Virus record (IMG/VR): IMGVR_UViG_3300037391_000010
Location: 1-64,000 of that record
Length of the DNA: 64,000 nucleotides
Direction: 5' to 3' (one strand)
From: a virus
Below, one piece after another: positions 5,450-14,914 of this stretch. The first letter of the stretch is position 1. Each line of letters opens with the position of its first letter. The translations under genes were made by a program, and so were the position numbers. The notes beneath the pieces were generated by a model. That model worked only from the letters and a program-made list of their open reading frames with translations, was not told the DNA's origin and ran no database searches.

Positions 5450-7447
5450 ATGCAACTCAATGAAGAACAGACGCTCGCGGTTGAACACCCGCTGAACGAG
5501 CCCGCCTGCCTCATCGCAGGTGCGGGCAGCGGCAAGACTCGTGTGCTCACGGAGCGTGTTCGCCACTTAATGGGCAAGATGAACGTCGTTCCTAAGCGCA
5601 TTTGTGCAGTGACGTTCACCAACAAAGCCGCAGGTGAACTCCTGACCCGTTTGGGGCTCGACACAAATCAGACCCCGCATCTGAATCCTCGTGTATCCAC
5701 CATCCACTCTCTGGCCTTGTCCGCTATCCGCAAGAACCCCCCAGCTTTCAGCATCGAGGGTGAGTTCACGCTGAAACCTAAAGTTTCTCCATTGGATGAT
5801 TACGATCAGAGTCAGATGATGAAGAAGATCATCGAGCGGGGGAAAATCACGGATACTAACCCATGGCGTGTCTTGGAGAACATCTCATTTCATCGAGCCC
5901 GTGGCGTAGGCTTTATGTCGGATTACACGGAAGAGATTGCTGCGGAAGCCGAGACGATGCATGGCGGATACCATGCAATGGGTGAGACCGAGTTATGCTT
6001 GTGGAAGCTATACGAAGAAGAAAAGGCACGTAATTCGGTCGTGGACTTCGACGATATGCTGCACCTGACGGTGCGCCGATTCCGCAGAGACGCCAAGTGG
6101 CGTGGAGCTATTCAGGCGATGTGGGATCATGTCCTGATGGACGAGGCTCAGGACACAAACCCCGTACAGTGGGAGTTTGTCAACTCACTACTCGGTCCTG
6201 ACAACATGAACATCTACGTGGTCGGCGACATGAGTCAGTCGATCTACGGCTTCAACGGCGCGGTGCCCGCTATCCTGAAGGACTTCAGCGAGAACTGGCG
6301 TGGCGTCCAGCCTAAGTTGTACCGCATCGCACGCAATCACCGCAGCGGCCAAAAGATCGTGGACATGGCGAATGCCATTCAGAACAAGATGACCCGCACC
6401 ATCCCGCTCAAAATGGAAAGCTGGCGAGGGATGAACGGAGAAAAGGGTAAAATCGAGGTTATTCGCGGTACATTTTCGCGGGACATTGCAGCCGAGATTG
6501 CCCTTGAGATTTTCAAAGATAACGAAAAGTTCTTGCGGGATGCGAAAACGGTCGCCGAAGGGGGAACGCCCCGAGAGTCGGCAGCGAGACCGATCTCCTA
6601 TCGTGAAAATTGTATCCTCGTTCGAGCAGCCATCCAGATTCGTGACATTGAAGCCGAACTGGTGAAGCGCAAAATCCCGTATGTCGTGCGCGGCGGTCGG
6701 GGACTTTTACAGACCGAAGAAGTGCGCGATGTGTTGTCGTACATGCGGCTGGCGACCAACCATAGGGATTTCATGGCGTTCGTTCGTGCAGCGGGCGTGC
6801 CTCGCAGAGGGTGCGGTGAAGTTGCGTTGGAAAAGATTCGAGCCGTCGCCAATGATAAATACGACGGCGACTTGGTTACCTCAGCGGAAGGCGATAAGAA
6901 TGCCAAGATAGCGTCCTTCGGCGGCATCGTGCGACTTCTCACACAATTCAATGAAGACCCAGTTGCGCTTTTGGAACGAACGCTCGCATTGACACAGTAT
7001 ACGAATTACATTGCCGACAAGTACAAGAGGGACAAAAACAAAGTTAAGACCAAGCTCGAAAATTTAGATCGGTTCGCCCAGCTTGTCGAGGGGATGGTAG
7101 CCGACATCAAGATGACTGCCGAGGACATCATTTTCCAGCTTACGCTTGACCGTCCGAAAGATGATGACGAATCCGGTGCGGTCACCATTAGCACCATCCA
7201 CAGCGCCAAGGGGCTCGAATGGAAGCGGGTCTACGTGGCAAACGTGGTGGAAAGCTCCCTCCCCCACAAGTTCTCGATGGGGAACGAGGACGAAATCGAG
7301 GAAGAAAGACGTTTGTTTTACGTGGCTTGCACGCGAGCACGCGACTACCTCAACCTGTGTCTCCCCGCCATGTACCAGCAGCCTGACTCCCCCAATGTAA
7401 TTATGTTAAAACCCTCTAGATTTCTAGCCGAAATCAGTGTAAACTAG
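5450..7447 (+). CDS. UvrD/Rep-like superfamily 1A DNA helicase
   Basis: The 665-residue product shows the SF1A series: Walker A AGAGSGKT (24-30), AVTFTNKAAGEL (motif Ia), VLMDEAQDTNPVQWEF (motif II, DEAQ instead of DEFQ), VVGDMSQSIYGFNGA (motif III), RNHRSGQKIV (motif IV), STIHSAKGLEWKRVYV (motif V) and EERRLFYVACTRARDYL (motif VI). Length and order match UvrD, Rep and PcrA without extra nuclease domain. It should unwind DNA 3' to 5' during replication or repair. It follows the 95-residue gene with one spacer base; a class A promoter lies over its 3' end for the next operon. Confidence 0.93.
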   Translation: MQLNEEQTLAVEHPLNEPACLIAGAGSGKTRVLTERVRHLMGKMNVVPKRICAVTFTNKAAGELLTRLGLDTNQTPHLNPRVSTIHSLALSAIRKNPPAFSIEGEFTLKPKVSPLDDYDQSQMMKKIIERGKITDTNPWRVLENISFHRARGVGFMSDYTEEIAAEAETMHGGYHAMGETELCLWKLYEEEKARNSVVDFDDMLHLTVRRFRRDAKWRGAIQAMWDHVLMDEAQDTNPVQWEFVNSLLGPDNMNIYVVGDMSQSIYGFNGAVPAILKDFSENWRGVQPKLYRIARNHRSGQKIVDMANAIQNKMTRTIPLKMESWRGMNGEKGKIEVIRGTFSRDIAAEIALEIFKDNEKFLRDAKTVAEGGTPRESAARPISYRENCILVRAAIQIRDIEAELVKRKIPYVVRGGRGLLQTEEVRDVLSYMRLATNHRDFMAFVRAAGVPRRGCGEVALEKIRAVANDKYDGDLVTSAEGDKNAKIASFGGIVRLLTQFNEDPVALLERTLALTQYTNYIADKYKRDKNKVKTKLENLDRFAQLVEGMVADIKMTAEDIIFQLTLDRPKDDDESGAVTISTIHSAKGLEWKRVYVANVVESSLPHKFSMGNEDEIEEERRLFYVACTRARDYLNLCLPAMYQQPDSPNVIMLKPSRFLAEISVN

Positions 7448-7470: not shown

Positions 7471-7707
7471 ATGGCTACGAAAGCTAAGAAACAGCGGGCT
7501 TCCCGTCCGCAGGTCAGTCGTCTCGATTTTATTGGGACTCAGATGGCAAACTTCCTGCACGGCCTCAAGTACGACAATGGGCTACCCGCATTCAAGCGCG
7601 AGCAAGCCATCAAGTTGCAAGAACGGTGGGATTCCATCTGCGCCTTCCGCCTGAACAACCCCATCACGGCGTCGGATTTAGAAAAGGAATTGTTCCCCAA
7701 TGGCTAA
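7471..7707 (+). CDS. Hypothetical small basic protein
   Basis: A 78-residue protein with a Lys/Arg-rich start (ATKAKKQRASRPQ) and a helical body. It is the first gene behind the promoter at 7421-7454 and has GGAGGGG five bases before the ATG. It overlaps the next gene by 8 bases. No known family recognised. Confidence 0.65.
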   Translation: MATKAKKQRASRPQVSRLDFIGTQMANFLHGLKYDNGLPAFKREQAIKLQERWDSICAFRLNNPITASDLEKELFPNG

Positions 7708-7870
7708 ATCGAAGCCCTACGTCCTCGCCGAGGAAACCACGGATGGTGTAATCCGTGAATTTTTCGTGGACACGCCTGATGGTCGAATGAGCATCAAGGT
7801 GCCGAACTTCCTTTCTTACGCTGAGCAGAAACGGCGTATCGGCGTGATGTTGGGGGCACTCAATGGATAA
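7700..7870 (+). CDS. Hypothetical protein, 56 residues
   Basis: ATGGCTAA overlaps the previous stop. The product begins MAKSKPYVLAEETTDGV and continues as an acidic/basic mixed small protein ending MLGALNG. It is followed by an ATG that overlaps its own last codons. Tight overlaps on both sides and open frame length support it; no function can be inferred. Confidence 0.55.
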   Translation: MAKSKPYVLAEETTDGVIREFFVDTPDGRMSIKVPNFLSYAEQKRRIGVMLGALNG

Positions 7871-8105
7871 CCTGCGGAGCCTGTACACCAGTTGGGAAGT
7901 CTCGACCACTGAGGGGAACGATTTTTATCAAGAAGTGTCGAGGCTGCTCGAACCAATTTTCGAACGTGCCGTCGCCAAAAATATTCGCATCCGCGACCTC
8001 GCTCACACCATCAATAGTGTAGTGGGGGAATTAGAAGCGGTCCACAACCTCAAACGAAATTCCGAAGCGTACCATCGGGGGGAGAGACCAAGTGATAAAG
8101 CCTAG
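7863..8105 (+). CDS. Hypothetical small helical protein
   Basis: An 80-residue, mostly helical and charged protein with no cysteine or membrane segment. It overlaps the upstream gene by 8 bases and the NMN adenylyltransferase gene by 14, so it is co-translated with the NAD+ salvage genes. Family not recognised. Confidence 0.6.
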   Translation: MDNLRSLYTSWEVSTTEGNDFYQEVSRLLEPIFERAVAKNIRIRDLAHTINSVVGELEAVHNLKRNSEAYHRGERPSDKA

Positions 8106-9033
8106 CTACGGCGTCATCGTCGGACGGTTCCAAGTCAATGATCTGCATGATGGGCACATGGAATTGTTCCGTCAAGTTCGCGCACGTCATACCGCCATCA
8201 TCGTATTCGTAGGCGAGCACCCCGCAGGTTTGACGGTCGATAACCCGCTAGATTTTCCTGTACGTCAACGGATGATCCAAGCCAAATTCCCAGAGTTCAC
8301 AGTTTTGCCCCTCGCAGATCAGAGAGACGACGAAAACTGGAGTAAGAGTCTCGACAGAGCCATCGCCACTGTTACCTCTGGCGGATTCGGTGACGTAACG
8401 CTGTACGGGGGTCGTGACTCTTTCGTGCCTCACTATTCGGGACGCTATAAACCCGTCGATCTAGTCCTCCCTCTTGAAACCCAGAAAATCACTGGTACGG
8501 ATATCCGCAAAGAATTCTCGAATAAGGTCATCGAGTCGCCAGAATTCCGTGCGGGCATGATTTACGCCGCCTCCCATCTATGGCCTCAGCTTCTCCCGTG
8601 CGTGGACATTGCGATCCTGAGTAGCGACAGAACCGAAGTATTGTTGGGTCGCAAGCCGGGTGAGAACAAGTTTCGCTTCATTGGCGGTCACGCCGAGAAG
8701 AGGCACGGCAGCTACGAAGCTGGCGCACGCTCGGAGACACTGGAAGAAGCTGGGCTCGATCCGAACGCCATGGAATACATTGGCTCGGCGGTTATCCCCG
8801 ACTGGCGATATCGCACTTCCGACCGAGGCATCATGACCGCGTTCTTCGCAACCACCACAATGAGCATGGCCGCGACTGCTGGCGATGACATCGAAGAAGT
8901 AGCGTGGTTCGATCTCGACAAACTTACGACATTCCAGATGATCGAGGAGCACATGGAACTCCTCATCATGCTGCAAAAATATCTCAAGGAGGCTCTCAAT
9001 GCCAAGACCATTCAAGCCGCGTCCACTACATAA
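8092..9033 (+). CDS. nadM: Bifunctional NMN adenylyltransferase / Nudix hydrolase
   Basis: The 313-residue product has an N-terminal nucleotidyltransferase domain (about 1-165): GVIVGRFQVNDLHDGH is the HxGH-type ATP site, and TGTDIRKEF the C-terminal phosphate-binding motif. This makes NAD+ from NMN and ATP. The C-terminal Nudix domain (about 175-300) shows GGHAEKRHGS..SETLEEAGLD; the LEEAG part is kept but the usual Arg before the first Glu is Ser and the first Glu is not clear, so hydrolase activity is uncertain. The two-domain layout is that of the slr0787/NadM-Nudix family, where the Nudix part splits ADP-ribose. The start is GTG at 8092. It overlaps the NAMPT gene by 35 bases, so the two steps nicotinamide to NMN to NAD+ are coupled. 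Confidence 0.9.
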   Translation: MIKPSYGVIVGRFQVNDLHDGHMELFRQVRARHTAIIVFVGEHPAGLTVDNPLDFPVRQRMIQAKFPEFTVLPLADQRDDENWSKSLDRAIATVTSGGFGDVTLYGGRDSFVPHYSGRYKPVDLVLPLETQKITGTDIRKEFSNKVIESPEFRAGMIYAASHLWPQLLPCVDIAILSSDRTEVLLGRKPGENKFRFIGGHAEKRHGSYEAGARSETLEEAGLDPNAMEYIGSAVIPDWRYRTSDRGIMTAFFATTTMSMAATAGDDIEEVAWFDLDKLTTFQMIEEHMELLIMLQKYLKEALNAKTIQAASTT

Positions 9034-10438
9034 GACCGACAGCTACAAGGTCGGTCACTGGCGGTTCATCGTTCCGGGCACCACGGAAATGCTCTACTAC
9101 TACGAGGCTCGCGGTGGTGAGTATCCGTACACCATCCTGTTTGACTTACAAGGTAACATCATTCGCAATATCGAGGGCAAGTTCGCCACAATCACCGACG
9201 TTGAGGAAGCGGAGTACAAGGCGGGCCTGCACTTCATGACCGACCGCGCCTTCAACAAGGCGGGCTGGCGTCACGTCATCAACAAGCATGGCGGTCACCT
9301 GCCGCTGAATATTCGAGCGGTCAAGGAAGGCATTCCCGTTCCCGTGAAGAACGTCATGTGGACGATGAAGAATACCTGCGATCAATGTGCGTGGGTTCCG
9401 GGCTGGACAGAAACCATGTTGGAGCACGTGTGGTATCCATCGGCTGTTGTCACACGGTCTCGCTACACCAAGCAGATCATTGCTGAGTTCCTTGCAGAGA
9501 CGGCTGACGATTTCTCCACGCTACCGTATCAGCTTCACGACTTTGGCGGTCGTGGCGTCACATGCGTCGAGCAGATGGGCATCGGTGCGGCGGCTCACCT
9601 TGTCAACTTCCAAGGCACGGACACGTTGCCCGGAATTGACTACATCGAGCAGTTCTACGGGTTCGGAGCCAACGGCGGCGAAATGCCGGGTTACTCCGTA
9701 TTCGCGTCTGAGCACTCCGTTACCACAATGTGGAAGCGTGAATACGAGGCAAAATTCGTAGAGAACGCACTGGACGAAGTGCCTACGGGCATTCTCTCCC
9801 TCGTCGGCGATTCCTACGACATCTTCAACTTCACCGCCAACATCATCGGTGGTACGTATCGTGAACGCATTCGTAACCGCAACGGCAAGGTTGTGGTTCG
9901 TCCTGACTCTGGCGACCCTGTGAAGATCACTCTTCGCGTGCTGGAGATTCTGGGTGAGAAGTTCGGCGTGCGGGAGACGAGCAACGGTTACAAGATGCTT
10001 CCCCCGTGCGTAGGCGTCCTCTGGGGTGATGGAATCGATCACTACGGTGTTCGCCTCATCCTCCAAGCGATGAAGGATGCCAAGTGGTCTGCGGCCAACA
10101 TCGTGTTCGGTATGGGCGGCGGGCTGCTCCAGAAGGTGAACCGCGACACGCAGAAGGTTGCGATCAAGTGCTGCAACGCGGTCATCAATGGTGAGCAGGT
10201 TGAAATCTGGAAAGACCCAATCACCGATCCCGGCAAGGCGTCGAAGCGCGGGCGTGTGGCTCTGTTGGAAGACTCCAATGGCAGCTATCGCACGATGAGT
10301 TCGATCAAGGGTGACGGCAGGATGGACTATCCATTCGACCTGCTGGAACCGACCTACTTGGACGGTGAGGTACTGCGGTTCCAGAAGTTCCCCGAAATTC
10401 GGCAGCTTGCAGAAGTGTCGTTAGAGGTCTACGCATAG
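8999..10438 (+). CDS. nadV: Nicotinamide phosphoribosyltransferase (NAMPT)
   Basis: The 479-residue product matches NAMPT over full length: HKTDSYKVGH (Tyr that stacks on nicotinamide), HDFGGRGV (substrate Asp), ASEHSVTTMW (the catalytic, autophosphorylated His), VVRPDSGDP (Arg and Asp binding nicotinamide and PRPP) and FGMGGGLLQKVNRDTQ near the end. It condenses nicotinamide with PRPP to NMN, which the overlapping upstream enzyme turns into NAD+. AAGGAGG lies before the ATG inside the upstream gene. Related phage enzymes of the NARP1 pathway (Namat) use ADP-ribose pyrophosphate instead, but the NMN adenylyltransferase next door favours the NMN route. Confidence 0.94.
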   Translation: MPRPFKPRPLHKTDSYKVGHWRFIVPGTTEMLYYYEARGGEYPYTILFDLQGNIIRNIEGKFATITDVEEAEYKAGLHFMTDRAFNKAGWRHVINKHGGHLPLNIRAVKEGIPVPVKNVMWTMKNTCDQCAWVPGWTETMLEHVWYPSAVVTRSRYTKQIIAEFLAETADDFSTLPYQLHDFGGRGVTCVEQMGIGAAAHLVNFQGTDTLPGIDYIEQFYGFGANGGEMPGYSVFASEHSVTTMWKREYEAKFVENALDEVPTGILSLVGDSYDIFNFTANIIGGTYRERIRNRNGKVVVRPDSGDPVKITLRVLEILGEKFGVRETSNGYKMLPPCVGVLWGDGIDHYGVRLILQAMKDAKWSAANIVFGMGGGLLQKVNRDTQKVAIKCCNAVINGEQVEIWKDPITDPGKASKRGRVALLEDSNGSYRTMSSIKGDGRMDYPFDLLEPTYLDGEVLRFQKFPEIRQLAEVSLEVYA

Positions 10439-13065: not shown

Positions 13066-13432
13066 GCGCAAGATGGGGCTGGTGCTCCACGGCGGCTACT
13101 TCTGCTACGGCTGGAAACATGGCTGGATTCCGTGGGCACCCGAGTGGTTCAAGCACGCTGTCGTCCACGTGTGGAATTCTATGTACTGCATGAGGCATGG
13201 TCACGACGACATGCTCGTGGATTTGTACAAGGCGTTCATCGCAGAAGGCGAGATTGATCCCGAACCTCCATCCTGCGGGCGCTGCCTCACTGAACTCCCC
13301 GTTGACGGAAAGTACGTCACTCCCGTTAAAGCTCCGTGGTGGACGAAGCCGCCGTCGAAGGAAGAGATTGCCGAGTGGAAAGAACTAGCTCTACAGCCCG
13401 ATCTCCCAGAAGACTCTCCTGATCCCAGTTAA
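13028..13432 (+). CDS. Hypothetical Trp/His-rich protein
   Basis: A 134-residue protein unusually rich in aromatic residues (GGYFCYGWKHGWIPWAPEW), with His and Cys (CGRCLTELP) that could bind a metal. AGGGGTC lies before the ATG. Its last 107 bases overlap the end of the convergent minus-strand kinase gene, one of which may therefore be shorter than drawn. No family recognised. Confidence 0.5.
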   Translation: MASEKKKPNWRHKRKMGLVLHGGYFCYGWKHGWIPWAPEWFKHAVVHVWNSMYCMRHGHDDMLVDLYKAFIAEGEIDPEPPSCGRCLTELPVDGKYVTPVKAPWWTKPPSKEEIAEWKELALQPDLPEDSPDPS

Positions 13433-13907
13433 TCTCTAACCAAAAATCCCCGACTAGATCGCGCACGGTTGTGTCGAGAGCCCGAGCGTCTGCCTCCGTC
13501 CGCTGCGTGCGGGATTCTGGATCGTAACTTCCGGGCCGTGGGTGAATGAAGACGTTAAAGGTGTCGAAATTTGGTTCGATATCGCGGATGGCCTTTTTGA
13601 GGTTGTCGTAATAGACGTGACCCTTGCAGTAAAGTAAGCACTGGATGATGGGAGAGTCGCTTACGACCGCCTCGAACCCGTGCCGCTGGAGCCGCAACAC
13701 CCGCTCGTAGGTCTGTCCGACCATGAGAAGTTGGTTGTCGAGGAGTTGTGGCGGCACCGTGTTGGGTACGCCGCCATAGATGAGATCGCGGGCGGGCTCG
13801 TACAGCAAATCCGCCCTAACCCCCGCTTTCTTAAGACGATACGCCAGATAATACCCAAACGTGGTCTTTCCTGCCCCCGGACCTCCGCATAAATTGAAAA
13901 GCACCAT
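13326..13907 (-). CDS. P-loop kinase/NTPase, AAA_28 (NadR-kinase-like) family
   Basis: The start is ATG 13907 with GAGGGA upstream; a GTG at 13955 would add 16 residues before the natural first strand. The 193-residue product begins VLFNLCGGPGAGKTTFGYYLA (Walker A at 8-15), then LLYEPARDLIYGG, LLDNQLLMVGQTYERVLRL and VVSDSPIIQCLLYC (a Walker-B-like Asp). This order is that of small phage nucleotide/nucleoside kinases related to the kinase part of NadR. A role as ribosylnicotinamide kinase feeding the nearby NAD+ genes, or as a nucleotide kinase, is possible. It is on the opposite strand to all neighbours. Confidence 0.6.
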   Translation of the reverse strand: MVLFNLCGGPGAGKTTFGYYLAYRLKKAGVRADLLYEPARDLIYGGVPNTVPPQLLDNQLLMVGQTYERVLRLQRHGFEAVVSDSPIIQCLLYCKGHVYYDNLKKAIRDIEPNFDTFNVFIHPRPGSYDPESRTQRTEADARALDTTVRDLVGDFWLEINWDQESLLGDRAVELVLSTRQSLPSTAASSTTEL

Positions 13908-13960: not shown

Positions 13961-14914
13961 ATGGTCACATTTACGCAGGGGATGACTCTAGGGGCGTCCA
14001 ACCTGTCGATTTTAGTACGAGATGCGACAGGGGCTCTGGTAGACCCCACCCTCATCAACTACACAATTTTCCACGTCACCGATCAGCTACCGCTAAAGGT
14101 CACGCAGGCGTATGAGTACGATCTGCACCAACCCCAACACATGGCTGGCGGACCTCCGCTGCCTGCCGAGAACGTGCAGCTTGCTGGTTGCCCTCAGGCA
14201 GTCCCTACCCGCGTGTCGCAGGGAGCATATTATGTCCCGATCACCATCCCGACTACATGGAGGGGTGTGTACCGTCTAGTGTGGAACATCCAGATGTACC
14301 CTGATAGCCCGCTGGATACCGTGGTTGAGGTATTCGTTGTTCAGGGTATTGATCCGACTAATCCGGGATTCGAAGCCCCATCGGTCATCGTTGCTGTCCC
14401 AGAATCCATTGTCAACGTAGGGATGAGCACTCCCGCGATGTTTGCCAAGGCAATAATGTATGTTCGTGAACACTTGTCGGACACGAACCCCGACCGCAAC
14501 TACCATTTCCGTCCGCCAACCCCGAGCCGTGTGGTCGCAGGTTACAACACCCGCGTAGGCTACATCTGGCTGGACGCCTCGATCCTGATGCATCTGGATA
14601 CGGCGATCAGCATGTTGAACTGGTACAACCCGATGAATGTCTACAACTGGACGCTCGACACGATCCCGCTGGATTGGGGTCGCATCGCCGCCATCGGTGC
14701 CGCAGGATTCTGCCTCAAGATGGAGGGCAACCGCTGGGGAGCCGATCAATTCAACTACTCGTTGAATGGTGTGAGCTTGGACATCAACAAGGCCGACATG
14801 TACAACGGCTTGGGCGAATCGTACCTGACACAATTCAATACAATGGCACCGCTCGTAACAGCTAATCGTCCGATGAGCGTCGGCCTGCGCCAGCAACGCT
14901 GGCTACTGGGGTAA
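13961..14914 (+). CDS. Putative virion protein (neck/tail region)
   Basis: The 317-residue product starts after AGGAG and opens the virion gene block. The N-terminal half is beta-rich (LSILVRDATGALVDPT, YYVPITIPTTWRGVYRLVWNI), like an Ig-type domain; the C-terminal half is helical (IMYVREHLSDTNPD, DWGRIAAIGAAGFCLKMEG). No catalytic motif is visible. Position just before other structural genes and the absence of a signal peptide suggest a head-tail or baseplate component; the precise family is not recognised. Confidence 0.55.
   Translation: MVTFTQGMTLGASNLSILVRDATGALVDPTLINYTIFHVTDQLPLKVTQAYEYDLHQPQHMAGGPPLPAENVQLAGCPQAVPTRVSQGAYYVPITIPTTWRGVYRLVWNIQMYPDSPLDTVVEVFVVQGIDPTNPGFEAPSVIVAVPESIVNVGMSTPAMFAKAIMYVREHLSDTNPDRNYHFRPPTPSRVVAGYNTRVGYIWLDASILMHLDTAISMLNWYNPMNVYNWTLDTIPLDWGRIAAIGAAGFCLKMEGNRWGADQFNYSLNGVSLDINKADMYNGLGESYLTQFNTMAPLVTANRPMSVGLRQQRWLLG

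Follow-up and report, generated by a model that had tools for sequence, protein, structure and literature searches.

The window analyzed here is a stretch of 64,000 nucleotides, the first 64 kb of the 155,417-base IMG/VR record IMGVR_UViG_3300037391_000010. Its source is a large environmental phage of an uncultivated group. As the record is classed as linear, it is possibly a fragment, and the related IMG/VR records used for comparison may be fragments as well. Megablast of the window against known phages gave no match, a scan of bacterial genomes returned weak, distant matches only, and a PADLOC run gave no match. At 8092-10438 lies a pair of genes, nadM and nadV, predicted to encode an NMN adenylyltransferase-Nudix protein and a nicotinamide phosphoribosyltransferase (NAMPT). 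The features of the locus are as follows:

7863..8105, + strand: third small gene, 80 aa, a putative cassette member; overlaps nadM by 14 bases
8092..9033, + strand: nadM-Nudix, 313 aa, GTG start; NMNAT domain at about residues 1-160, Nudix domain at about residues 165-300
8683..8757, + strand: Nudix box of nadM, residues G198-L222; Glu215, Glu218, and Glu219 kept, Ser214 in place of Arg, Gly206 in place of the first Glu
8986..9001, + strand: Shine-Dalgarno sequence AAGGAGG and the nadV ATG, within the nadM reading frame
8999..10438, + strand: nadV, NAMPT-type nicotinamide phosphoribosyltransferase, 479 aa, ATG start

This pair had been recognized in a preliminary description of the DNA, and its open reading frames, coordinates, and 35-base overlap between nadM and nadV were confirmed. 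The matches to Pfam, PHROG, and NCBIfam models given below exclude chance as an explanation for the pair. An identical AAGGAGG precedes nadV in the sister phage L002.

The first gene (8092-9033) encodes an NMN ADENYLYLTRANSFERASE and a Nudix domain. The latter was recognized by Pfam (NUDIX, PF00293, 3e-13), while the NMN-adenylyltransferase half scored 16.3 bits, under the 21-bit cut-off. A profile built from nine relatives matched the bifunctional NadM structures 2qjt and 2qjo, and the same two structures were the top PDB matches of an AlphaFold2 model (mean pLDDT 74.5), covering both domains with E-values of about 1e-15. Whole-chain TM-scores were low (0.3-0.4), because the relative placement of the two domains is unresolved in the model. 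The NMNAT motifs HDGH and TGTDIR (HxGH and ISxTxxR-type) are present, and His22 and Arg139 are invariant across 73 loci. By sequence and predicted fold, the protein is thus a bifunctional NadM-Nudix. It failed the NCBIfam equivalogs for cellular NadM (at most 31 bits against cut-offs of 354-449; 31 versus 409), low scores that point to a divergent phage branch of NadM.

The Nudix box itself is altered. The complete signature, GX5EX7REUXEEXGU, is not matched: the arginine is replaced by Ser214 and the first glutamate by Gly206, and there is one extra residue. Of the 73 relatives, 60 have Arg or Lys at position 214. The glutamates of the "RE" and "EE" pairs are retained (Glu215, Glu218, and Glu219) and are essentially invariant among these relatives. 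When a profile of the relatives was compared with the PDB, the closest solved Nudix domains included the ADP-ribose pyrophosphatase 4kyx. The preliminary description had stated that the catalytic motifs are kept; given the altered box, this applies to two domains out of three, the NMNAT domain and NadV being complete.

The NadV protein is full length, with both the NAMPT_N (PF18127, 5e-20) and NAPRTase (PF04095, 4e-44) domains and the PRPP-site residues. It matched PHROG 448 (phrog_448) at 1e-140 and passed the NadV-type NCBIfam equivalog NF006629 with 495 bits against a cut-off of 405. Residues for binding of nicotinamide and ribose phosphate are kept, as is the catalytic histidine that becomes phosphorylated (Asp14, Tyr16, Phe182, Arg185, Asp208, His239, Arg301, and Asp303). 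In one related record, L113 (IMG/VR 3300027896_000047), the NadV-like gene reads through one in-frame TAG, which suggests either recoding or a broken gene.

Placement of NadV with Namat, the NAMPT-fold enzyme of the NARP1 system, had been named beforehand as an outcome that would speak against the assignment. Profile scores and phylogeny both fell on the NAMPT side. The best solved relative of NadV was human NAMPT (6tac) at 415 bits, against 223 bits for 9W5X and 9W5W, the structures named as Namat (PMC12774641). The hallmark of Namat is a selectivity-clamp helix, GSxxxxxxTRD, with aromatic residues at positions 3 and 7 (PMC12774641). The window NadV reads GGGLLQKVNRD at this site, close to the GGGLLQKLTRD of human NAMPT. 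The Namat motif is carried by Prs-linked homologs (GSFSYQFNTRD in Staph1N and GSFTYQFNTRD in BcoS-136), and is absent from all readable NadV proteins linked to nadM. In the tree, Namat-type and NAMPT-type proteins were split at 100/100 support, and a joint clade of Namat with the group of the window NadV was rejected (AU p = 0.014). The partner gene of NARP1 is missing too: no match to a Prs- or Adps-like gene (PF13793) was found in the 155-kb contig. With scores, clamp motif, tree, and partner gene all ruling out a Namat/NARP1 identity, NadV reads as a true NAMPT.

The 2 genes form a unit. IMG/VR was scanned with a profile, which yielded 80 nadM loci; 73 distinct nadM proteins, earlier loci included, were analyzed. 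In 69 of these 73 loci nadV was adjacent, in nearly all cases immediately 3' of nadM and in many overlapping it. One of the 4 exceptions is cut by the contig end. The other 3 have a NAPRTase-family sequence elsewhere on the contig, for one of them just a fragment of 38 positions where the contig ends. This agrees with a published survey, in which every phage with NadM has NadV too (PMC9503650).

As a unit, the pair is accessory and removable. In 2 related phages, L143 (3300038465_000091, 223.5 kb) and L134 (3300014838_000427), the same neighborhood was found, but nadM, nadV, and the third small gene are missing; it runs from uvrD through the first and second small genes, a tonB-like gene, a DUF1599 gene, and 3 further genes to a P-loop gene and a gene of the type found at 13961. 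Neither nadM nor the NAPRTase family was found elsewhere in these 2 contigs. At the DNA level, L143 tracks L002 for 150 bases with 95% identity until about 10 codons into the third small gene, and after this break resumes at the start of the tonB-like gene. Since the sister phages lack precisely nadM and nadV together with the third small gene, the pair behaves as a discrete, dispensable cassette. The junction alone would allow gain as well as loss; in a tree built from the flanking core genes, however, L143 is sister to the window and L002 (100/99) and nested among carriers, which favors loss. In a second contig, L142, the pair is absent independently.

Two further assignments were affected by this comparison. 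The preliminary description had suggested that the 3 small genes upstream belong to the same NAD+ program. The first 2 (7471-7707 and 7700-7870) are retained where the pair is missing and are therefore neighbors rather than parts of the cassette; the first was found beside uvrD only. The third, alone of the 3, tracks the pair and is a possible cassette member; it is about 40% identical in L002-L005 and was not detected in other relatives. The suggestion that the P-loop gene (13326-13907) encodes a NadR-like kinase of this program found no support. It passed only the broad AAA_28 model, matched no solved structure by sequence and no NCBIfam model, and likewise persists without nadM and nadV.

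The region of the first 2 small genes (7471-7870) is prone to recombination: at the end of the second, L143 and L002 are 95% identical, while the window and L002 differ strongly. In 2 relatives (L002:1432-4371 and L012:4222-7060), the UvrD helicase gene that neighbors the cassette contains in-frame insertions resembling inteins. The insertion sites differ (for L002, C...N|S around residue 263; for L012, C...N|C around residue 237), and the window uvrD (5450-7447) has no such insertion.

Within the cassette, the 2 genes have been exchanged independently. The nadV tree grouped the window with L002, L006, and L007 (100/99), a grouping rejected by the nadM data (AU p = 0.0003). In the nadM tree, the window tended to fall with L008, L010, and L011 (75/88), a placement rejected by the nadV data (p = 9e-6). 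Between the window and L002, dS was 2.2 for nadM, whereas the other genes compared are close, at 0.63 for nadV, 0.41 for the tonB-like gene, and 0.32 for the P-loop gene; dN/dS values for DUF1599 and uvrD, computed with misplaced frames, were left out. The conflicting trees, together with the dS of 2.2 for nadM against 0.63 for nadV, indicate that alleles were swapped separately. Purifying selection acts on both genes (dN/dS against L002 of 0.13 for nadM and 0.085 for nadV). Positive selection as the cause of the nadM divergence is unsupported, as dS is raised along with dN; rather, nadM was replaced by a divergent, still constrained allele.

Phage NadV/NadM pairs are already well documented, and NadV-like matches were found in almost two thousand phage records. 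Nearest to the window pair in enzyme content is NARP2 of Vibrio phage KVP40 and its relatives, which we take to consist of a NAMPT and an NMN adenylyltransferase-Nudix predicted to lead from nicotinamide via NMN to NAD+. The window encodes the same 2 enzymes with the same predicted route. The differences are a NadV with about 39% identity to that of KVP40, a single operon with a 35-base gene overlap, neighbors that comprise uvrD and unrelated genes, and the absence of the Nudix arginine. The same gene order, nadM-Nudix then nadV, is found in the huge-phage genomes LR745206 and LR756502 and in Tunturiibacter phage Tunturi_5. Their NadM proteins are 38-41% identical to that of the window, and their genes are separated by gaps of 78-117 bases rather than overlapping; Tunturi_5 and LR745206 retain the Nudix RE motif, unlike the window. 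The bifunctional NadM-Nudix proteins of Francisella and Synechocystis (2qjt and 2qjo), the best structure matches, have the same 2 domains in the same order, but share only about 16-18% identity with the window NadM, which has a loop longer by 2 residues ahead of HxGH as well as the altered Nudix box. NARP1 (Adps and Namat) likewise restores NAD+ with a NAMPT-fold ligase, but differs in substrate, clamp motif, and partner gene.

NARP2 has been listed as a counter-defense that restores NAD+ (PMC11984713, PMC12300627) and is core in the KVP40 genus (PMC12028318). A 2022 survey described phage NadV and NadM as reconstituting NAD+ against NADase effectors (PMC9503650), and NAMPT and nadM have been reported in snow phages (PMC11097641). 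The correspondence to NARP2 proposed in the preliminary description fits by gene content, as a NAMPT and an NMN adenylyltransferase are co-encoded in the phage. We consider that the locus is probably a NAD+ salvage cassette of the NARP2 type, carried by a large environmental phage and most likely serving to outlast NADase defenses.

In principle, a pathway from nicotinamide to NAD+ follows from the established chemistry of these enzymes. NadV would convert nicotinamide and host PRPP to NMN and PPi, and the NMNAT domain of NadM-Nudix would convert NMN and ATP to NAD+ and PPi. If active, the Nudix domain would split ADP-ribose, the other product of defense NADases, into AMP and ribose-5-phosphate, which host Prs could turn into PRPP. 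Because no Prs-like gene is present in the 155-kb contig, PRPP would have to be supplied by the host. The phage would in this way keep or rebuild NAD+ while the pool of the cell is drained, most likely by NADase defenses. Within this scheme, ADP-ribose hydrolysis by the Nudix domain and the defense purpose are both putative.

A general metabolic role is a fair rival, though in our judgment an unlikely one: in slow-growing hosts, the enzymes would supply phage replication with a larger NAD(H) pool and have no particular connection to defense. The study of snow viruses interpreted NAMPT and nadM in this manner, citing the KVP40 salvage pathway (PMC11097641), and genes for NAD-dependent sugar epimerases are likewise present in the phage. 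Counting against the defense reading, an accessory, patchy gene pair is also expected for a plain metabolic gene, and a Pfam scan of the 155-kb contig found no domain of NAD/ADPr counter-defense alongside the pair (macro, NADAR, or Sir2-like). On the other hand, presence/absence and allele exchange in conserved neighborhoods look more like the behavior of accessory arms-race genes, and the Nudix fusion would consume an NADase product.

There is a further proposal, which we regard as quite unlikely: in this phage lineage, the Nudix half may have diverged to another substrate or to regulatory, non-hydrolyzing sensing of a ligand, with the separate exchange of nadM and nadV coming about through host NADase defenses picking different NadM alleles. 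Less likely again is that NAD+ synthesis takes second place to the Nudix domain, whose main job would be the removal of immune signals or by-products of the ADP-ribose type. Phage Nudix domains have been proposed to act against ADPr-derived signals (PMC9503650), and 4kyx is among the nearest solved domains, but the signature arginine is lost in the clade of the window NadM, and the near-obligate pairing with NadV points to NAD+ synthesis. Finally, a NARP1-like system, in which NadV would in fact be a Namat acting on ADP-ribose pyrophosphate, can be practically dismissed: Namat and Nampt are homologous and have catalytic residues in common (PMC12774641), but the clamp motif, the bit scores, the separate clades, and the lack of an Adps/Prs-like gene all stand against it.

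A NARP2-type salvage cassette at this locus would extend the NAD+-rebuilding strategy of phages to large phages of an uncultivated group. Our additions to what is documented are modest: the comparison with genomes lacking the cassette, the independent exchange of the 2 genes, and the altered Nudix box. Together they provide a natural comparison, with close genomes that differ at the site by the cassette alone, with defined edges, and sisters with swapped nadM alleles. With these, the role of the pair, and the faster variation of NadM than of its partner, can be asked about with few confounders.

Several other genes of this phage and its relatives stood out. Beyond the window, a 498-aa phage open reading frame (G000:110746-112242; L019:7746-9239) combines an InPase domain (PF18823) with a following RelA/SpoT domain (PF04607), and is possibly an alarmone enzyme fused to a pyrophosphatase. 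An RNA ligase open reading frame (L020:13949-14974; G000:136446-137474) has a match to an HNH endonuclease in its N-terminal part. The phage also encodes 2 ice-binding-like domains (PF11999; window and L017/L018), one of them inside the window.
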